A DNA stretch of 64,000 nt from Planoprotostelium fungivorum. Lineage: Eukaryota; Evosea; Variosea; Cavosteliida; Cavosteliaceae. This document shows positions 33,609-52,909 of this stretch, in pieces. Every line of letters starts with the position of its first letter. The stretch's first letter is position 1. The notes beneath the pieces are model-generated. The model worked only from the letters and a program-made list of their open reading frames with translations. It was not told where the DNA came from and did no database searches. The stretch is taken from contig MDYQ01000439.1 in NCBI GenBank assembly GCA_003024175.1, positions 35,900-99,899 of the forward strand, read 5' to 3'. The position numbers were made by a program, and so were the translations under genes.

Positions 33609-33947
33609 CTCGTTGTTAAACTGCGCCCGAAAGAATGGTTGGTGGTGAAGATTGCTGCGGGATATATCAATCGTTGTCTGACAGGTTCCGGTTTGTATTT
33701 GCTGCCACAGCTTTCGCTTGCCGCTTCAACATTTAAGGTGGTCGGTGCCATTATCTCTTCGATAAACTTTACAATGAAGCTTCTGCGTTCTACTCTTCTA
33801 TCAGCCTATACTCCCCTGCCTCATGTGTCGGTCATCATCCGACATTACCTTCTAAAATGTGTCAATTTACAATTCGTTCACTTTCAAGGAAGAACACATC
33901 AGATCCACGCAATCTGAAAACACGAATCAAGGCACACAAACATACAA
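33609..33947. other. Divergent intergenic region
   Basis: This is a 339-nt spacer between divergent starts at 33608 and 33948. I see no coding frame with support and no clear motif. Confidence 0.4.
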
Positions 33948-35907
33948 ATGAACGTCTTGAAGATCGTATTCCAAGGTCTTCTCCTCCTCGCTTTCGCAGC
34001 TTTCCTTAGATGGTCAACCAGGCAGGTGGTATTGAAGAAGAGACCACCCATCAACCCTTTATATTCTTCTCTGGCCTACGTAGCTGTCATCATCCTCTTT
34101 GGATTTCTCTACATCATCAACTTCCCCGCCTTCATTGGAACAACCCATCCTGACGTCATAGCCGCCAAATCGCTGTCCAGATCAGAATGCAGGTGAGATA
34201 TGTCCGTCATTTCTCTCAACTGACACGATTTGCAGACAGGCCAGTGAAAAGGGATCTGTTGCTATGTGGACGTGGAACAATCAAGTGGGAAGGGTAATCA
34301 TCGATTTCTCCTCTTCAATCTTGACCGCTGTTAGGACCTGCACAAGGAATACACCAAATCATATGGTTCCTCCGCCTTCACATCACAATTATTCAACGCC
34401 CTCCTCTTTGGCTCCGGAACAATGGCCACTGTCATGCCCTTCATCTTTCAACTGATCGCAGCCGTCGCTTACAAAGTGAAGAACATGAGCTACATCGACA
34501 CGATCTCACATCCAACAGTACTTCAGTCGCGAACACAAATTGGGAAGCATCTATCCTCTGAAGCACCAAGGACTGTCCCTCCCCTTCGTCTTTGCCATCA
34601 CCATCACGTCCATTGTCATTTTCGGCACCTTCCATCTCGAAGCCGATCAAGATCGCACCCACCTATGTCTCCTCTTCTCCGGTCACTGGTTCACTTACTT
34701 CTTCACCACCCTCTTCGGTACGTCATCTCACAATCTCACCACCATGCACCATCCCGATGTTCCGACATCTGATCGACTCCGCAGGTGTACAAGCCTTGGT
34801 CCACTTTGCCGCTTCTTCTGGCCTCTTCTCTACATACACAGCACTCTACGCTGGTTACTTTGTCTTGTGTCAGACCCTCTTCTTCAGGGTCTTGAACATC
34901 ACACAACAGTTTTATCACGATTCAGAAGAAGCTCGCGGAGGACTGTCTAGAGCCATGGGTTACTCACCTTTTGTCTTTGGTGTCTTCTTGTTGGTCGAAT
35001 GGTTCAATTGGAACCGATACCAGACGGAGAAGGTGAGATTCGCATAGACATCACCATCATGATCATCTTGAAATCATCATCACAATGTAGATCGACTGCT
35101 CGCGTTATATGTGATATCTCGTGAGATATCTTGAAAACTGAACGGTACAGGCCACGAGAGACGAAGCGAAGAAGACATTGAACGGATTACCCGACGAACT
35201 CAAAACCATCTTGAAGAAGGCTGGCATCAAGAAGAGCGTCCTCTTAGATAGTGATGTCATGGGACAAGTTCAACAGAACTATGTTGATTACGTCACTTCA
35301 CTCAAGGCCCCCGCCGCTGCTGCTGCTCCCTCTACACCCGTCAAGGTGCGATGTCATGACACGATATCATATAGAATCGTTCACCTCTCATCGATGCGTC
35401 TCATATCAGATGAAGTGACGTGGAGATCTAAATATAGAACAGGCTACCGTCAGCCAGGGAGCTTCCCTCCCACCCCCAGCCCCTCCAGCCCCTCAGACAC
35501 CCATCGAAGTGAGAAACGCTCCCCTCCCTCCCCCCCCTACCCCCACCGCAAAGAAGAGCGCCACCGATCTCCCTCCCCCCCCACAGTTCGACGCCGACGC
35601 CTTACCTCAGCCTCTACCTTCTTCGAGCGACATTCAACTGCCTCCACCCCTCGTCACTTCCTTTGAAGTGTCTAAGAAGCCTGACGCGAGGTCTCTCGTT
35701 GATGCCATGCAGAAGTTAAAGAAGGTGAGAAGAAGAGGAGAGAAGAAAATTGAGGAGAGATAGGTTACACCGGGTCAGAAGCCGATCAAGGTGGAAGAGA
35801 ACAAGTTGTATAACATGCTCGTCACTGGATTAGACAGAGTGAGAGCAGCTGTCGAAGTGGAAGAAGAGGAGGGTGCATCAAGTGGAACGGACGAAGATTG
35901 GAATTAA
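33948..35907 (+). CDS. Polytopic membrane protein with proline-rich tail, unknown
   Basis: The start ATG is at 33948 (MNVLKIVFQGLLLLAFAAFL). About seven hydrophobic segments follow across several introns: LLLLAFAAFLRW, LAYVAVIILFGFLYIINF, ALLFGSGTMATVMPFIFQLI, FVFAITITSIVIFGTF, GHWFTYFFTTLFG, GLFSTYTALYAGYFVLCQ and FVFGVFLLVEWFNW. The C-terminal ~250 residues are hydrophilic. They include a helical part (DELKTILKKAGIKK), a proline-rich section (PLPPPPTPT, LPPPPQFDADALPQP, about 35470-35640) that could bind SH3 or profilin-type partners, and an acidic end GTDEDWN. I do not recognise the family. A signalling receptor or channel-like role is only a guess. Confidence 0.7.
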
Positions 35908-36859: not shown

Positions 36860-37255
36860 GGTTGAGCTCTGCGGGTGATCTTGTTTGTGTGCGGATGTTT
36901 GTGCTTTGTGGAGTTTTCGGAGTCTCGCTTCAGTCGTGACGTTAATGGAATTTCTGAAACCGAGGCCGAGGGTGGTCCTTGTACCCTCGCGAGCCACTTG
37001 GTGTTTGCAGTACAGTTGAGATGAAGAGAAGTCGCGTCAGTATCGCGTGCTTGATGGAGAAGCTGTGTGGCTATCGCGTGCTAGCTCTTACACATATACC
37101 ATATATTGGTAAGATAAAGCAAGATCTCGGTTGTTGGTGTGACGGATACGAACACGATGTCCTTCAGTCCTTTCATTTTGTTTGTCAGCCACAATGAAAT
37201 AGAGATAAAAATCAGATCGAGATCATCATTGTAGAATGAGTTGATCACGTGCAGC
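36860..37255. other. Divergent intergenic region
   Basis: This is a 396-nt spacer between a minus-strand and a plus-strand start. It contains a duplicated 10-mer, tatcgcgtgc, at about 37040 and 37072. No gene is supported. Confidence 0.4.
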
Positions 37256-40200
37256 ATGGATTCACCGAATAGATTTCAAAAGACAGAAACGAGAGGAGAG
37301 ACACGAACGCAATCAATCATGGCCTCCTCTAATGAAACGTTCGAGCTCTGGGTTCAAGAGAGATTGGCTTCTTTTCATATTGACAGTCCAGACATTGCAA
37401 TCGAATTATTGAGGTCACAGAATGCCCAGCATATACAAGATTATCTTTACGTGAGTCTCTCATTAAACATCAGGTGAAAAGGTAACGTCGAATTAGGGTA
37501 TCTTGGGGAAAGATGCAAAGGTAGAAAAGTTTGTCAAGAGGCTACTAGAGAGACTCAAAACATACACCGTTGCAAGACGAATAGAGGTAAAACACCGATC
37601 ATCGCTCACGTGACATGTTAATCTCCTCTCAGATGCCAGACGATGTGACTGTCCTTCGAGGGAAAGACGAAGAAGAAGAAGAGTTTTGGTCAACTGGAGG
37701 AGCCAATAAGAAGAAGGGAAAGAAGCCGAAATCTCAACCAGTGAGCGACAATCAGACAGTGACGGAACAGCACAAGGGCAATCTGAAGATCACCACTATC
37801 ACGTGAGACCATCACCTCTCCACAAGGTCCATCACATTGACCGAAAATCAGAACGAAGAAAGATCATGTTGGCATCCGTTGCAATTGTCAGGCTACCGAA
37901 CACAATCTGAGAGGAAACTGCCTCTCCTGTGGAAAGATCATTTGTGAAGCTGAGCCAGAAGGCGCCTGCACATTCTGCGGTTTCGACGCCAAGAACAAGA
38001 AGGGAGGACAGGTCTCATCTGATACCTTAGAGAAGGCCATCAAACACAAGAACAAATTGATCGATTACCAAGAAAATAGTGCAAAGAGAACGATCATCTA
38101 TGGTGAGCGTCTGAAACAGTCCATCATGATGCAGCAAAAGTTGATCACGATCAGACGATCAGTCTGATTATTGGACGAACAACAATTGGTTGAATCCAGA
38201 AGAAAAGAAGGAGGTGAAGATAGATTCACACATCTCATTGTGATGACGATCGACAAGGTGATGAGAAGAGAAGAAGAGAACAAGTCGAAGAAGGAAGACG
38301 ACCGAAAGAAAATCAAGATCACTTTCGATTTTGCGGGCAGGCGAGTTGTAGAAGAAGACAAATTGGAGCCGTTGGACGAGAACGCAGTCGACACGAGGAG
38401 CAACGCACCTCTACTAGAGAAGGGAGGGTGAGATGAGATCGATACAGAATAGATCTGATGGACACAGGAAATCTGAGAAAGAGAAGGGGAAGAAGATTGA
38501 AGCTCAGACGGTAACTCATTCCAATGGTAAAACGAACGTGAGTCGAAACGATAGACGAGAGAATAATTTACACTATTTCATATTCTATCAAAAAATTCAT
38601 ATTCATATTGATTGAAGAGAATTTGACGGACGAATAGAATGATGTATCTCTGGTGTGTGACACTGTACCCATGCGTCCAGAATTCATTCCAAAGAAAAAG
38701 GTGAGGCACATCTCTTCACATACATCCTCGACTGATTCTCATCAGAGCACCACGAAACCAAAGTCCACCAACGTGACGAACCACAGGTGATATGAAACGG
38801 TGAGATAAGAAATGACGTAGAGACAGAGTCCAACACGATTATTATTCCATCGACACAGAGAAGGAAGAGACGAAGAATAAGAAGGAGAGACCCTTTCAAA
38901 TCAGAGGTCTCGTGGAAGGACCCGACAACTTCACACCAGAAGAGAGGAAAGTCATCGTGGACGAATTCATTCGCGACGGTAAAGTCAACCATTACCTCTA
39001 CTGTTGTAGATACGACAGAGACATGTCGTGGAGAGACAGGTGACGCGAGAGACATCGACGTAGCTGAATCTTTAGCTATTCCGCGGAACAAGAAAATTCT
39101 GTGAAGAAGGTGGTCGAGCAGATCAACCGGCCGGAAGTTCAATTCAATTTTGCCATCACATTCGGTGAAGATACAGAGTGGGACGATGCGAAAGACGTAC
39201 AACGTACGGTGCAGAAGATATCAGCTCTGCAGAAGCTGAAGGTGAGAAAGAGTTGTCCATGTGGCATCTCAATCGTTGTAGATACGACATTTCACATTCA
39301 TGTTGAATGTGACGAGCCAGTCGAAGAAGTACAAGCTGCCGGGACCCTTTCAAGCTAAATTTGTCAATCAGGTGAGAGAGAGAAATGATAAAGGAATGAC
39401 TCTAACGTCAGGTCATACAAGCTGCGAACAAAAGCGCACCGCCGGGGCTGGGTAGCACCTTCTATATCTATCCAAAGATCTCATTCGGGAACATCGAAGA
39501 GAGACAGCCGACGAAAGAAGAGGTGTGCATCATGTGATCATCACATCATCTCCCTCCATAGTCACCACAAAGATGTATCCGATCATCGGTCCCATCACAC
39601 CATCATCCGATGATCACACCCAACATCCGATCACATCTTCATCACCCGATCATCTTCATCTCATCATCACGTCCAGTTGGAATACTGGCTCGCCTTGCAC
39701 AACCATCTGGAATCGAACGTGACTGTCCTCTTCCATGGACCAGAATTCGTCTCCACAAGGATCACCCTTCCCTTCTGTGAGAAGCTCCGGAACATCTTCC
39801 AGGTGATTCTTCCGGTGATGACGTGTGATGACGTCATCAGGGACGGAAGATCTTGCTGTGGGACAATTTTCCGGTCTCTGACAGCGGTTCCCGGCTGATC
39901 TACTCTGGAGCCTACGATTGTAGAGATCCTACAATCAACAGCGTTGTAGAGGGGATATTACTGCACCCTTTGCAGCAGAGATTGATGCCCTCTCTCTTCT
40001 CTCTCCAGACTGCCTTTCACTTCTTATCATCTCCGATCAGGTGCATCATGATGATGGAAGAGGAGACATTGAACGTACGACAGTTACCAGCCCGATTTCA
40101 GTCAACAAGCCGTTTTGACTCATCTGTGCGGCGATGAGAGATTAGCTCAAGATCTCATACACATCATGACAGCATCACCTAAACCCAGCACTCCATTCAT

Positions 40201-40583
40201 CGATCGATCCATTCCACAGGGACTCTTACAGAGAAGACTCAAAAGTAGAGCCTTCTTCGAAGACATCTTGGAGAGGATCGGCCGCATCGCCAACGCCATG
40301 AAGGGTGGGAGTTCTTTAGAGGAGGAGTTGTTGACGTCAAGATGTAGAATCGAGGCTCAAGTTGGGTCATTACGAAGTTCCGACACGGATGATCTGCGAG
40401 ATGACGAGAAGGTTCTCCGTCTACAACGTGGATCGCATCATTTTCGAAGAATTTAGAAACAAGGGAGGAAACAAGGCGGACGCTGCGGTGATGAAGGCAC
40501 AGAAGAAGTTGGAGGACAAGTTGAACGAGTCAAAGAAGCTCTTCGATGCCATTCTGACGGCTGACGGCGATGTGTCCATCTGA
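37256..40583 (+). CDS. ASC-1/TRIP4-type zinc-finger protein apparently fused to a GH84 (O-GlcNAcase)-like domain
   Basis: The start is the ATG at 37256 or 37319 (MASSNETFELWVQ). The N-terminal part matches activating signal cointegrator 1: IAIELLRSQNAQHIQDYL, then the C2HC5 zinc finger RCNCQATEHNLRGNCLSCGK plus CTFCG (about 37875-37985), then KNKLIDYQENSAKRT, DQSDYW and FDFAGRRVV. GT-AG introns then join NNDVSLVCDTVPMRPEFI, KSTNVTNHR and DRVQHDYYSID without a usable new ATG. Next is a GH84-like barrel: RPFQIRGLVEG, NHYLYCCRYDRD, FNFAITFGED, IRHFTFMLNVT, LFHGPEF, KILLWDNFPVSD, RLIYSGAYDCRD and LSSP. Human OGA has GFYG and DDID where this has GPDN and LNVT, so the catalytic aspartates are missing. 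A helical C-terminus (40120-40583) follows. If it is two genes, the second would start near 38670-38820. Confidence 0.65.
39523..39676 (+). repeat. Long intron built of ATCATC/GATCA motifs
   Basis: This 154-nt intron, against about 40 nt typical here, consists almost entirely of atcatc, gatcatc, catcac and ccgat units between gtgtgc and gtccag. Confidence 0.6.
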
Positions 40584-40597
40584 TGATGGAGGAGATC

Positions 40598-40603
40598 AAT
40601 AAA
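40598..40603 (+). terminator. Polyadenylation signal of the TRIP4/GH84-like gene
   Basis: AATAAA lies 15 nt after the stop at 40583. Confidence 0.5.
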
Positions 40604-41023
40604 AGGGATCAAGACAGTCACACCGACTAGTAATCTGATGCTTCCTGTCTTTGAAAAATGGGAACGTCTTGAAAGATGAATTTGATTCCTTTCTCTCCCT
40701 CATTTCTCTGCCCACGCTCACAGCATACAACGATCGTATGCCGACCTGCGAGTCTTCTGTGCAAATGATGAAGGTTATGGACTTGGGAAATGCAGATGGC
40801 TATTAATATCTCCCCTCTATAATTGGGCGAACAAGAACGTTGTGACGGCCTGCATAAGGGTTGTATCGCCGCAATCAGGCGGGTCTGAAAGTGTTGGGGT
40901 CATTCCTCCCTACACCTTCAATCAACATTTGAACAGGAACACGGAGATATTCTGCCCATGCGCTCGCCTTTTGCGACGTTCCTCAGTCTCTATAGAGAGT
41001 TCATTCTCACTCGACACAAAGAG
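40604..41023. other. Intergenic / upstream region of the CEMIP-like gene
   Basis: About 420 nt without a recognised gene. An open frame without ATG runs from 40842 into the signal peptide of the next gene, so a first exon or 5' UTR may lie here. Confidence 0.4.
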
Positions 41024-45591: not shown

Positions 45592-48500
45592 TCACGTCAT
45601 CACGCGATCGGAGTACACCTCGTGATCTGTTTCACCAGGATACACTGCCATGTGAGCGTACAGATCCAGCGGCTCGTTCGAGTTCCTCTCCGATTCGAGT
45701 CCGGACTGATAAGCACAGACGTCATAGTTTCCTTCTTGTTTCTTCGCTTCTGCTTCATCTCAGCCCAATCTCTGTCATTCTATCTCTCACCTGATTTCTC
45801 CAGAGAAGAGATGGTGAAGTTGTCCGTATCACCTGGTAGTAGAACGGTGTACAGTTCTCTCATCTGAGTGTAGATGTCACGGAACGATGGTCGATTGGGT
45901 GGCTCGTACTCCCAGCATCTAGACAGTATGCTGAACAGCTCGTCTGGACATCTAAACCATCTCAGCTCACGCTCTTGTTGTGTCATCTCACCTGAATGGC
46001 TGCAGTAATGTCTTCTTCTCTTCAACGACGTGATGTAAGACTTCCTTGTTTGATGATAATTCCCAATAAGGTGCTGTCGTCCGTCAGTTCATGTTCCATC
46101 TCTTCATCTTCTCACTCCTGCCCAAAGAAAAGATTTCCCTATATTCTATCAGTCCATGATTTCATAAGAGAGGACGCACCATGCTAATACGCCGAAACTC
46201 CATACATCAGATTGAAACGTGCTCACTTTGTATCGAATCGTCTCTGGTGCCGTCCATCTGTTCTCGTTCATCATTGAATAGAGATTTAGTAGATTTACTA
46301 TTCAATTTATCGTTGAATAGTAGAAGATCTGATATACGAAAGAATGATTACCTGAAAGGTAAGATGTTCTTCTTCGCTTCGTAATGGTTATCTTCTCTAC
46401 TCATTCCGAAATCAGATATCTGTTCTTCTTTCACTCTCTCTTTCTCTCCTCTGTCTCTCACCTTTGCATGCTTCTGTCCGTCTACCAGTATGTTTCTCGC
46501 TGCCAAATCTCTGTGTATGATCCCTGTCTCCTCGTCACTCTCTTCCTTCTCTTCTTCTCACCTTTCGATTGTAGATAGAGCATGCCCTTGACGATGTCGA
46601 AGCAGAGAGAGATGAGATTATTGTCGTTCAAGTCTCGCTGGTTCTTCTGCAGGTATCTGCACTCGTTCAGTCTCACTCGTCCGATCGATGGTCTATCCGT
46701 AGATGTCGTAGAGAAATGGGTCTGGGACGGCCATACAAATTCGAAGGGTTCGCGGAAAGATCCGCAACGATTATCGTTTAACAGGATAGAATGGAACCCC
46801 AATTCTCACGAAAATAGAGAGGTGAAATAATGAACGTCACCTGTCGAGCGAGCCACCTTCTAAATATTCCAACACCATCAGAAATCGACTGCCATGTGTC
46901 GTTACACCCAACAAGTTGACCACATTCTAAAGGGAATCAAAACACGGACGAAATAAACGACTCACAGGATGATTCAATTTCTTCAGTAAGACGATCTCTC
47001 TTCTTATCTCTGCATCTTCGATCGAATTCACCGCCTGTGTTGGTGTCAATGTGATGATGGAGGTACGTAGAATCGAGAGCAGGAGAAGAGACACACCTTG
47101 ATGCCTTTCAAGGCCACGACGGTTTCATTCCACGATCCTCTGTACACTTCTCCAAAGTTACCGTGTCCGATCACTTCTTCCACCTTCTCGACATCATTCT
47201 TCTCTCTTCATCTACGATCGTCTACTCACAGTGACATCGTCCAGCATCAGATCTGACACGTTCAGCCTCTGCATCTCTTCTGCGATCATCCTTCTCTTCC
47301 TGCCGTTCTCTCTCCTTCTCATCACCAAAAGGATGGTCACGATGATGACACAGAAGGAAGAGACAGAGCCGACAACGATGCCTGCTATGGCACCCCAGCT
47401 CAGTGGTTTCGTGATGTCACTGATGGAAGCTGTCGTGGATGGTGTGATGATTCTTATCTCTTGACACGATATCGTTCCGTCTGTACTTCTTCAGCATCTA
47501 TCATTTCTCGCAGTGTGACACACCTGAATCGACCTGTGACGAACTACCAGAGTCACACTGCACCGACACGTTGCCCGACGACGACGACATCAGAGTGGCA
47601 GAAGAGGACAGATAGATGACATCGTCATACAGTCTGTCTCGTCCATCAATCACAATCTTCCATCTTCTCACTCACTCTGATGATTCCAATCGCAGAGAAG
47701 TCCTGTTGTTCAGATCGATGCCTCCTCCCCTCATTGCTGCATTCTGTGATATTCTCGTGTAGGTCACATCCGTGTCTTGGTACACAGACATTCCCCCTCC
47801 TTTTCCCGCTCTGTTCCATTGGATCGTGCTGTTGTTCACCACGTTCCTCAGCCGAGTTGTATCGCGTACTTTCGAGGTCGTCTGGTCCAAGAAGAGAGCT
47901 CCACCTTCTGTGATAGCCGTGTTTCTGTTGAAGACTGTGCGAATGATCGCGCTGCCACCGGACGCGGCTGCATCTTGGATTAAAGGAGATGGAAAGAGTT
48001 TAAAGAGGATGGCTCACAGGAGATGAAGAGAGCGCCACCCTTGTCGTTGGCTACGTTGTCCGTCAGCGTGCTGTCCATGACGACGAGTCCTTCTTTAACG
48101 GAAGCGTAGACGGCTCCTCCTTTGTCTGCACTGTTGTGGACGAAGCTGCAACTGAAGAACGAAGAGTTGCCTTGTCCTCCTGTTTCTTTTCAGTTTCATG
48201 AAATGCTCAGAGATGATGATGAGAAGAACATTTTCATTTCTGGTCAAGCTCGTTCGCTGTGGATATCTTCCATTGAAAGACAGAAATGATCACCTGATGT
48301 TATGTACACTGCTCCTCCCATCTGTGCTGTGTTGTTGCTCATGCTGACGTTGTACAGACTGCTACCATACTGACTGCTCTCTGTTCCCACATAGATCACT
48401 CCTCCCAGTCCTCCTTCGTTTCTGTTCTCCCCCTCAACACTTGTCTATCACTAGATGTTTCTCTCACCCTGACATTTGACTGTCTGCTATCTCGTTCGTC

Positions 48501-51500
48501 TGTGTCGACCTACCACTGAGAGTAAACACTGATCCTGTCGATGTCGCCGTGTTGTTTGTAGCTGTGATAGAGACCGCGCTCAGGGTGAAGACAGAAGCCG
48601 GAGTGAGATAGTAAGCCCCATACATTCCCTATTCTACGTCATCATCTCTTCATCATCGCTCGTTAGTTAATGTGATGGTGTAACTCACAGAGTTGGATGT
48701 CACTTGATCGCTGTCCACTGTCAGAGATACTGATCCCATCAATTCGATCGTTCCTCCTGATGCTGCATCGTTGTACGACATCTCGTTGTCTGTACTCGTC
48801 ATCTGTGTGATGGTGGAATCACCGTCAGAGTAGACGGCTGAGCCTTTGGGAGATGAGTTTGCCTCAAAAATATTATCTCTCATGACTACGCTCGTCTGTT
48901 TCCTTCGTTAAATATCCTCACCACATCAGATAGCGTATCGATGTGATGTCGATTTACGATTTACATCGATGATGTGTGTATCACATCACGGTCTCATCAT
49001 GCTATGTGAAATGATGCAAATCGATTGGATATTCACCGTATTCGAGCGCGTCAGCCTCAAGCAGCCACCGGAAGACAGAGCTGTGTTATTCTTGCACTTG
49101 TTCTTCTCTATCGTCACGCTGCGAAATCCTGATAGATGCATGGCTCCTCCGGATATCGTCACGTTGTTATTGTAAAATACGTTCCCTAATCTCGGTCATT
49201 CGGCCGTGATGAATGGGTAAAGAATGAGCGGATGATCACCGTGTAGAGTGATGTTGCCGCCGGATGTGGACACAAACTGGACGGCTCCTCCGTACGATGC
49301 AGACGATGTGGTGAATGATGTGTTTGTTATCGTCACGTTATTGATGATTCCTTTCTACTTTGTGTCAAACACCTTCGTAGCAGTAGCTCGGATTATGATG
49401 ATCAGGTATACAAATGATGTCATATATTACGGTAGACTTTCATCATCTCACCTGATAGATAGCTCCTCCATATCCCAGCGCCGTATTATCTACAAACGTG
49501 CTGTTATAGATACCTGTTCCTCTTCTCAGTCTTCACCTTCACACCATCATCTCACTCATACTCGCTGTCTCTCCCGTAACTTTCACTGCACTTCCGTCCG
49601 TGTGTCCACTGATGATCACTCCATTCAGCGTCATGTTTCTCACTCTCCATGAAGAGAAGATGGCCAATCCTTCCACTCCCTTGTTGCCCGACATCTCACA
49701 TCTCGTCAGCGTCATCTCTTGTATCTGTCTCTCTCGTCGGTCATTCCTCTCCTCTCTCCCACTCACGACTCCCGTATTCGCTATCGCAGCTCCTGACGTG
49801 GCCGTGTTGTTGACAAATTGAACGTCCGTCATGCTGACGTTCGGTGGTGGTCCATATCTCGACGTCGAGTTCTGCAAGTTGACGAGCATCGCTCCACCAG
49901 AGAAGGTGCCCGTGTTGTTGTAGAAGGTGACATTATTCATCTCTACACTTCCACCTCCGTGATTGAGATACATACCGCCGCCTGCGAAGGGAGAGAAATT
50001 TCCGCGAAATGTCACGTTCTTCAGAACGAGAGATCGCACGAGATTGATCGTCTGGTAGGTGTAGAAGGCACCACCCATCACCGTGGCCAGATTGTTCTCC
50101 ATCAGTGAATCTACAACCAGTCACGTCCACTCGTTTACCATCTTGACGCGTCACCTCTGACGGACAAGGTGCCGCCCAACAATGCGATGCAGCCACCGTA
50201 AAATAAGGCGATGTTTCCTCTGCACGTTAAGCCTTGAACTTCTACGGTATTCTGTGCGGAATTGAGGATGTAGAGGACGGAGCCCGAGTTTGCCTGATTG
50301 CTGAAACCACTGATGTTGACCATGGTCGCATTCGCTGGATTGAGTCATCTTCTGCGACGATGAGGTGGATTCTCACTGTTGTAGAGGTAGATGCCGTACG
50401 ATAGATCACCCAGGCCGAGATTTCGGTAGTAATAGTCTCGATACACCGTCGCCACCATGTTATACATAACAGCCACTGTAGAGGTGAATGTCTGTATTGA
50501 ACGATCGTTATGATAGATGATCATCCATATGTTTCGATAAAATAATCGTGTTCTATAATGAAGAGATGTATCGATTGGGTTTCATGTCCCACCTCCGGCC
50601 AGAGTACCAGAATTGGAGAGGAAAAAGTTGTCACTGAGGGCAGCATTTCCTCCGTACATGTACAACGGTGTATCTTGACATCGACTGAACGTGTTGTTGA
50701 TCATGGTCGTCTGACAGTTGTAGATGTTCAAAACAAATCCCCGAATCTTTCCTCTCGATTCTAATTCGTTTCAGCCGAGAAAAAATAGAAAATGTATTTG
50801 ATTTAAATGTGAGGAATGATCTCACTTGTTATGATGTTTCCTTGGTAGAATAATCGACTGTTTGAAAATAACATGGCGGAATATAATGCGTTGCTGAAAT
50901 TAGACGTTGTGATGTTGGCCATCACATTGTAGAAAGAGAAGCCAGATATAGTGCAGCCCGTGAAATCGAAATTACTCCCCGTAATATTCACGGAAGACAT
51001 CACGTTCGTTGGAAAGAAACATCCATCTACATCAGAAGGTTGAGGCTGATGATATGAATCCAATTCCACATACAAATATCTCTCACCATGATCAACGCGA
51101 GAGAAGAAGAAGAGATGAAGAGCTGACTGACGTTACCTCCGATCTGAATCTTTCCCGCCTAAATGTCACGTCAGTATGATCCTCCGTCGTTATTCGAGTC
51201 ACTCGTAAGATGGTTGAATTGTAGAGTGAAACGATTCCGACGCTGCCTGATGCAGAGAATAAGGGTACGATGATTCCATAGGGTGCGGCCTGCTTGAATT
51301 GACAGCCGATGAAATTTACGGATGAAGCGTTATCCGTCGTGAAGAGGGGAACGGTGAGAGAGAGTGACCTCCAGTTTAGATTGTACATTGTCACGCTGCC
51401 TCCTCCTTCTATCACGAAGGCACAGTCTGTCTCTGTCAATTGTCGTGATAGACGTACAGGTCTTCACCGGTCATATTGGTCATCGAGTTGAGTGGACCGC

Positions 51501-52909
51501 GTAAGGTGAGGTCGTTGTAGTAGATGGACGATGTATTCTGACAGACGATGTTGCTGGGTGGTAATTGTATGTCGAGAGAGGATGTACTCTTGGCCGTGAT
51601 GTATTTCAGCGCTGTCTCTCATTCAGTTGTGCTTTTCCTTCCTCGTCGTGAATATCTAGTTCTATGTGAAATATGCATTTTTTTCAGATTTTATCTCTTC
51701 TCACCTCTCGTGATGTTGCTCACTCCACTGATGTCTATTTGACCTATCCCTCTGTCATCCTACATCATCATCTATGCTCATGTGCACATCGAGCGTTGGA
51801 TGATGAGAATGAGATCAGATGATCTCACCGTTGTTCATCATGTACATGTCGAATGATGCGATCGTCTCGTTCGTCTGTGCTGACACCACCTGCACTCCCA
51901 CCACTCCGCTCGTGCTCGTCACAAAGCACATCGCTGTCACTCTGTACGCCCCATCGTACGTGTAATCGCTGCAGGTCGTGTTTGCTGCAGAGATGGACAC
52001 GTTGCCTTGGTACATCTTGATGCCATAGGCAGACACGTCGATCAGCTGGGGTGAACTGACTGTTCTCATTCAGTCTCATGTTCGATCATGAAGGATGAAC
52101 TTCTTCGTATTTATCCCATAGTGCATCGACATTTATCTTATGAGCGTGGTATATTCCGTTTATTGCCTCTCACTCAGCGATGGAATTGTAGATCGTGGAG
52201 GATAGATGATGTAGATCATGAGAGATGTGAATCGATGTTTCTTGAATCGAATATGATCTCATATCTTCTTCATTCTCTCACCATCGTAGATCTGCTGAGC
52301 TATACTCTGACATTTCGTCGTCAATCTCAGCGTCACTTGCCCATTCGTCACGTTCTCTACCCTCAGACTCGGCTCCGCCTTCACATCGCAGCTCACCACC
52401 ACGTCTGTCCGTATCGTCACTGCATCAGCTCCGGACGCCGGCTTCCATTGCAAGTCTAACTTGTAATGGACCAACCCATTCTCTCTCGTCAGAGTTGCAG
52501 CACTTGCGTTCGACGAGAATGTGAGGCCGTTCTGCACGAGGCACATAGTTGAGCCGCCGTGCAGTGCACAATCATCCGTGATGGCCTGTGGATAGACGAG
52601 AGGTCTGATCAATTTCAACGATGTGCCTCTCATGTGGTTCACATCACCCGCAGGGGGACCAATATACCTTGATGTTGCCTCTAGCAATGGCGAGATAATT
52701 TCCACTGGATGGAGTCAGTCACGTGCATCATCATCAATCTTCTCTCACTTGTTCTCTCCTAAACTTCTGGGCCATCCGAGATCGACGTATCCCAAATCAT
52801 CCGAAAAGATGCAATTGCCAGTTGTCGTCTGTGATGTTGAAGGTGTGAAGAAGAAGAGGCATGTATAGAGGGTATACAATAGAAGGCGATGGGCGTGTTG
52901 CCCACGCAT
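45592..52909 (-). CDS. Receptor tyrosine kinase B with beta-helix ectodomain (paralogue of A)
   Basis: The start ATG at 52909 ([20 protein letters not shown]) gives a signal peptide. [14 protein letters not shown] then aligns with kinase A. The ectodomain again consists of GGA..N(N)TA beta-helix rungs over about 4.5 kb. The TM helix is [20 protein letters not shown] (about 47325-47400), followed by the same [13 protein letters not shown] juxtamembrane block. The kinase carries [32 protein letters not shown] (about 46490-46530) and DFGMSRVD-like sequence, and ends with the [20 protein letters not shown] block. A last intron (from about 45800) leads to a tail [20 protein letters not shown] ending at 45592. 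This tail is absent from A and contains tyrosines in YDV/YAH contexts that could be phosphorylated. An extra ~100-nt intronic insertion relative to A lies at about 46680-46800. Confidence 0.84.
46274..46320. repeat. AT-rich inverted repeat in a kinase B intron
   Basis: The 8-mer ttgaatag (46274-46281) is mirrored by ctattcaa (46298-46305) and repeated directly at 46313-46320. This gives a short stem inside sequence absent from the matching place in kinase A. Confidence 0.55.
49568..49995. repeat. Block nearly identical to 20229-20655 (kinase paralogues)
   Basis: Partner of the block in kinase A. Differences are scattered single bases, and similarity drops sharply outside. Confidence 0.85.
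52273..52601. repeat. Block nearly identical to 22771-23099 (kinase paralogues)
   Basis: Partner of the N-terminal ectodomain exon of kinase A, with only a handful of base differences. Confidence 0.85.

Follow-up and report, generated by a model that had tools for sequence, protein, structure and literature searches.

Organization of the locus

The window is the 64,000-nt stretch of Planoprotostelium fungivorum DNA analysed here, bases 35900-99899 of contig C412 in a genome of 36.9 Mb and 471 contigs. On its + strand, a spliced model of 17 exons reproduced the span of 37256-40583 given by the initial annotation and was read in frame, without an internal stop, into 828 aa (Table 1). All 16 introns of this model are GT-AG, with lengths of 34-154 nt and GC contents of 0.38-0.50 except for the intron at the junction of the two parts. 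Four introns that had been proposed to carry the frame across the junction were found within a few bases, at 38428-38467, 38538-38637, 38701-38745, and 38787-38820. The longest model intron, of 154 nt (39523-39676), lies inside the GH84 part and has abundant CATC/ATCATC-like repeats.

Gene structure was also predicted with a home-made two-strand hidden Markov gene finder. The starting parameters of the first models took in the introns of the locus and the whole window, and these models were retrained minus 36901-40900, later with 50 kb more. A further model was started from generic splice signals and took nothing from the locus. With this generic start and training without the locus, exons 4, 5, 6, 9, and 11-16 were recovered exactly, exons 10 and 17 started 6 nt later, exon 3 had 18 nt added at its start, exon 7 was recovered partly, and exon 8 was recovered from its ATG. 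Exons 1 and 2 were not recovered by the gene finder, and their basis is splice sites and a weak TRI4_N match. Elsewhere in the window, at 45592-52909 on the - strand, the predicted pieces read to us like one receptor with extracellular repeats and a kinase domain, split by the finder.

Table 1. Features of the locus, in positions of the window
Feature	Position	Strand	Evidence
TRIP4/ASC-1-like part, exons 1-7, aa 1-335	37256..38537	+	Spliced model, Pfam, human ASC1 match
C2HC5 zinc finger, all eight human TRIP4 zinc ligands present	37877..37984	+	Pfam and ligand comparison
Junction: candidate intron GTGAGT...TAG, 100 nt, GC 0.30, or portion of an intergenic gap	38538..38637	+	Model, gene finder
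TRIP4 stop codon (TAA) under the best two-gene model	38564..38566	+	Gene finder
Exons 8-9 with intron 38701-38745; basic low-complexity linker, aa 336-369	38638..38786	+	Spliced model
In-frame ATG in exon 8, possible start of a separate GH84-like gene	38671..38673	+	Model, gene finder
GH84 domain (NAGidase, PF07555), aa 398-696, exons 10-16	38903..40150	+	Profile match
Site of the catalytic Asp pair (human D174, D175), here Asn-Val, AAT GTG	39306..39311	+	Alignment
Last exon, stop at 40583; stretch beyond the GH84 domain without family match	40342..40583	+	Model, Pfam
AATAAA poly(A) signal, sole one on the + strand within 37001-41000	40598..40603	+	Hexamer scan

A single-copy TRIP4 without a detectable ASCH domain

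The initial annotation had named the first part a C2HC5 zinc-finger TRIP4 protein, and Pfam supported this assignment. Within aa 1-335, zf-C2HC5 matched with an E-value of 1e-10 (41.9 bits, cut-off 25.8) and TRIP4_3rd (PF23134) with 7.2e-17 over its full length (1-54), and a match to TRI4_N (PF23135; E-value 0.0013, 19.1 bits) stayed below its cut-off of 27.8. The same residues matched the human ASC1 chain 8alz_A with 7.4e-25. All 8 zinc ligands of human TRIP4, as listed in PMC10076317, are conserved in the amoeba finger. An exon-by-exon search of the genome, in which only the best candidates were scored, yielded one zf-C2HC5 match, which is the locus itself. Relatives of the TRIP4 part were confirmed neither in viral contigs, by search and alignment, nor in prokaryote genomes. 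Matches of the N-terminal half to YecM, ArgoN, and beta-lactamase were taken as chance.

No ASCH match was found by Pfam in either half of the 828-aa model. The sole ASCH match of the genome is at 154025-155137 of contig C173 on the - strand, in a predicted protein without any other Pfam match. This protein carries hydrophobic segments at its C-terminus and lacks a TRIP4 domain; the predicted gene may be a false join. That it represents a displaced TRIP4 tail was considered and is possible, but the predicted protein lacks a TRIP4 domain, and the candidate was set aside.

For human TRIP4, PMC10076317 describes a zinc finger that alone suffices for anchoring to ASCC3 in vitro, a lasso peptide that wraps ASCC3, and an additional need for the lasso and ASCH parts in helicase stimulation. 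When the human lasso peptide, as the one orthologue used, was compared with exons 7-9, no likeness above shuffles was seen, with 1893, 2096, and 1426 of 3000 shuffles scoring equally well for the three stretches.

Other parts of the ASCC machinery were looked up in the same genome. Sec63 matches were found on contigs C197 and C155 and on each of them span the domain roughly two times, a pattern to be expected of Brr2 and ASCC3. An AKAP7_NLS match was present on contig C47; this domain occurs in ASCC1.

A GH84 domain that has lost the catalytic Asp pair

The GH84-like barrel claimed for the second part was confirmed by a match of aa 398-696 to the GH84 profile PF07555 with 1.7e-37 (129.8 bits, cut-off 25), covering positions 1-288 of 295. 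Thermobaculum terrenum 5diy was matched with 3.2e-23 and a human OGA chain with 1.5e-14. Search and alignment confirmed no relatives of the GH84 half in viral contigs. In the genome, three exon-level GH84 matches were found at two places, namely the locus and contig C131 at about 33736-35030 (L006 4236-5530). The GH84 of C131 has an intact FDD, looks from its sequence as if it bears a signal peptide, and is probably a secreted hexosaminidase.

The window GH84 was aligned with human OGA, T. terrenum 5diy, the C131 GH84, and the best 80 of 574 prokaryotic relatives, none of the 80 being dropped. Both catalytic Asp are present in human OGA, in the C131 GH84, and in 80 of these 80 loci, which are the nearest of the 574 to the T. 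terrenum query and thus a sample leaning to canonical enzymes. The window GH84 has Asn-Val at this pair. The 5diy chain shows Asp-Asn, which we take to be a crystallised mutant. Four further positions that are invariant in the best 80 of 574 are altered in the window (K98R, Y219S, T250H, and N313H in human numbering), and the aligned FYG loop lacks its F and Y. The equivalents of W278, D279, N280, and D285 are conserved, as is the first Gly of RGxxEG. As described for OGA in PMC10636738, the acetamido group is polarised by D174, D175 serves as acid/base, and the residues in contact with GlcNAc are D174, N280, K98, G67, N313, and D285. Of these six contacts, three are identical in the window (G67 equivalent, N280, and D285) and three are changed (K98R, D174N, and N313H), where taking G67 as the first Gly of RGxxEG is our own reading, since the aligned human fragment starts at residue 73.

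Such changes have to be read against the C131 GH84, which retains the Asp pair and itself has Q, F, and T in place of K98, W278, and N313. Single pocket changes are therefore no proof of inactivity, and the argument for inactivity is carried mainly by the Asp pair. The Asn-Val codons are internal to exon 12, at a distance of 24 nt from the exon start, so that the substitution is not a splicing artefact. A long branch by itself proves no loss of function either. In a tree of GH84 domains with 31 rows, 27 of them from the best 80 of 574 loci, the window sequence had a branch of 6.44 compared to a median end branch of 0.77, too long to be placed, and the branch of the C131 GH84, with its intact Asp pair, was longer still at 10.

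Judged from its sequence, the GH84 part is thus very probably inactive as an O-GlcNAcase and a probable GH84 pseudoenzyme. The initial annotation had implied removal of O-GlcNAc by this domain, which finds no support in view of the lost Asp-Asp and the other altered pocket positions. An active nucleocytoplasmic O-GlcNAcase, which if fused would tie ribosome quality control to the removal of O-GlcNAc, is a question separate from that of the gene boundary, and we consider it extremely improbable. The strength of the family match and the retained W278, D279, N280, D285, and RGxxEG Gly would speak for such an enzyme, but both catalytic Asp are gone, K98, Y219, T250, and N313 are altered, the substituted codons are inside an exon, and the best GT41 match of the genome is SPINDLY-like. 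Ten exon-level GT41 matches were found on five contigs, and the first 326 predicted residues of the best one (C58 near 303682, L031), which combines TPR and GT41, matched plant SPINDLY with 3e-114 vs 3.5e-79 for human OGT. For this reason there is no positive evidence of O-GlcNAc cycling around the GH84-like protein.

Neither a natural GH84 pseudoenzyme nor a NAGidase domain in Amoebozoa was found described in the searched literature under CC0, CC BY, or CC BY-SA.

The junction between the two parts

According to the initial annotation, the second part has no usable ATG at its start. This did not hold, as an in-frame ATG is present in exon 8, opens the sequence MRPEFIPKKK..., and is taken as the start by the gene finder. 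Downstream of it, the 17-exon model has no further Met before the GH84 domain. If exon 8 belongs to TRIP4, with VPMRPEFIPKKK as part of the lasso peptide, GH84 would be left without a start codon of its own, and the fusion would follow. In a coding versus intergenic comparison, the 33 nt of exon 8 before the ATG scored -2.2 nats, 38671-38700 scored +1.2, and 38746-38786 scored +4.0. In the two-gene model TRIP4 ends with the exons 38468-38510 and 38555-38566, and in an alternative form exon 7 is read through to a stop ending at 38615.

The donor and acceptor of the candidate junction intron match the consensus and are in phase. The initial annotation had doubted this intron as a possible gene boundary, and the doubt proved justified, since among introns of 80-150 nt it stands out by its high AT content, with its lowest 60-nt GC at 0.18. 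Among 859 predicted introns, none of the 70 of 80-150 nt had a GC of 0.30 or less, and a lowest 60-nt GC of 0.20 or less occurred in 0 of the 70 vs 3 of the 47 tandem gaps that measured 60 nt or more; the generic-start model predicted 867 introns, 73 of them of 80-150 nt and again none as AT-rich as the junction, although all these sets were chosen by the same gene-finder models and are biased against AT-rich introns. The hexamer scan of the + strand of 37001-41000 found no AATAAA at the junction. Of 109 predicted genes, only 21 have an AATAAA no further than 150 nt away, and in this genome start-codon context and poly(A) hexamers give too weak a signal to decide the junction.

The posterior of one gene was computed as that of having no intergenic base within 38300-39000. 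In the first models the one-gene path was 2.07 or 0.91 nats below the best two-gene path, with posteriors of 0.134 and 0.323, and 0.209 when long-intron composition was used. When introns were given intergenic composition, so that AT content was ignored, the posterior rose to 0.698. The generic-start model placed one gene at -0.40 nats with a posterior of 0.43 and the same exons. Each of the three trained models gave two genes as its best path. The verdict thus depends for the most part on how AT-rich 38538-38637 is. Of the fusion proposed by the initial annotation, both family assignments stood, and a single protein received an ab initio posterior of 0.13-0.43, or 0.70 without AT content.

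Calibration on other gaps of the genome

In order to read these values, one-minus-two scores were obtained for other predicted tandem gaps and matched to the gaps by gap length. Eleven gaps were 215 nt or shorter, and seven were 121 nt or shorter (16, 66, 70, 72, 74, 113, and 121 nt). The 113-nt gap is a false split, both sides matching consecutive parts of OCD_Mu_crystall (ornithine cyclodeaminase). The gaps of 16, 66, and 70 nt also look like false splits, with one-sided Pfam matches; we take them to lie within focadhesin and GFAT. The gaps of 72 and 74 nt part different Pfam families, homeobox from SIP1 and kinase from NOP9, and look from these matches like real boundaries, which suggests that this genome does have short intergenic gaps. 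The 121-nt gap had no Pfam match on either side.

The locus scored -0.9, and in the same model the 113-nt false split scored -0.4. The likely false splits of 16, 66, and 70 nt scored -1.3, -1.1, and -8.2, the apparent real boundaries of 72 and 74 nt scored -6.3 and -5.3, and the 121-nt gap scored -3.4. All 16 gaps of 250 nt or shorter ranged from -16.9 to -0.4, including unclassified ones at -0.9 (228 nt) and -1.7 (189 nt). The long introns, 67 of 70 being tested, scored 0.0 to 20.3. The locus falls between the false-split and real-boundary classes, which hold few verified cases.

One gene or two

The sequence evidence is near even, and it is the low prior probability of a new fusion that makes two tandem genes, TRIP4 followed by a dead GH84-fold protein, slightly more likely than one gene; we give this arrangement an even chance. 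A single gene, to which we give somewhat under an even chance, would encode an 828-residue protein in which a dead GH84 barrel takes the position of ASCH in animal TRIP4 and is tethered to ASCC3 as a docking or recognition module. Its 17 exons are open, in phase, and bounded by GT-AG throughout, the locus score is nearer to the known false split than to the two pairs with distinct domains, and the posterior is 0.43 from a neutral start and 0.70 when AT content is ignored. ASCH is absent from this TRIP4 and the single ASCH match of the genome is elsewhere, and the lone + strand AATAAA of the region falls past the GH84 stop. Against a single gene stand the 100-nt AT-rich junction, with a GC under that of all 70 comparable introns (73 in the generic-start model), the non-coding score of the 33 nt upstream of the ATG, and the preference of all three trained models for two genes. 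In the comparison with one orthologue, which is weak evidence either way, exons 7-9 did not resemble the human lasso above shuffles and so give no hint of exon 8 being part of TRIP4. A mixture of both forms, with mainly separate transcripts and some read-through or spliced fusion mRNA, could use a junction that offers a fitting intron as well as a stop plus start; no positive evidence points to it, and we regard it as very improbable.

Preferring two genes, we infer a gene boundary between the TRIP4 and GH84 parts. The locus would then consist of a single-copy TRIP4 (ASC-1) without detectable ASCH and, about 55-105 nt on and on the same strand, a dead GH84-fold gene. Judging from its family, the double zinc finger of TRIP4 would dock on an ASCC3-type helicase and help to split collided ribosomes. 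The GH84-like part, with its barrel signature and without the Asp pair, would not cut and may serve as a binding or scaffold domain. We suggest only tentatively, as one of the less probable readings, that the dead O-GlcNAcase barrel replaced the ASCH domain of TRIP4, as a pseudo-glycosidase built into a cofactor of ribosome rescue. Its ligand, possibly a glycosylated protein, would be recognised on the ASCC helicase or on ribosomes that have stalled.

A GH84 domain with its fold signature retained and its catalytic pair lost would be a natural pseudoenzyme of this family. If it is fused to TRIP4, a combination for which no description was found in the searched literature under CC0, CC BY, or CC BY-SA, it would represent a new way to equip a ribosome-splitting helicase complex, in a eukaryote distant from yeast and animals. 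If the genes are separate, TRIP4 has a dead GH84 protein of an unusual kind as its neighbour, and the latter is no longer linked to ribosome rescue.

Comparison with known systems

The first part resembles human TRIP4/ASC-1 (PDB 8alz) in its double zinc finger with eight ligands and in a third domain with DDxSDY and DFAGR. It differs in having no ASCH match and in being followed by a GH84-like region, in the same or an adjacent gene, and exons 7-9 are not alike the lasso peptide of this one orthologue above shuffles. The second part can be compared with the O-GlcNAcases of GH84, human OGA and T. terrenum 5diy, with which its barrel aligns over nearly the full profile and shares the equivalents of W278, D279, N280, and D285 as well as the initial Gly of RGxxEG. 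Unlike human OGA, it has Asn-Val for Asp-Asp, altered K98, Y219, T250, and N313, and no F or Y of the FYG loop. A further system for comparison is the inactivated bacterial GH84 CpOGA used in the laboratory as an O-GlcNAc binder, which likewise has the GH84 fold minus catalysis and, as reported in PMC8386111, binds O-GlcNAc-modified proteins with high affinity. This makes a binder role conceivable for the amoeba protein. The CpOGA binder is the laboratory version of an enzyme, whereas the pocket at the locus is altered at several sites, so that sugar binding is not implied and the altered pocket does not point to the same ligand.
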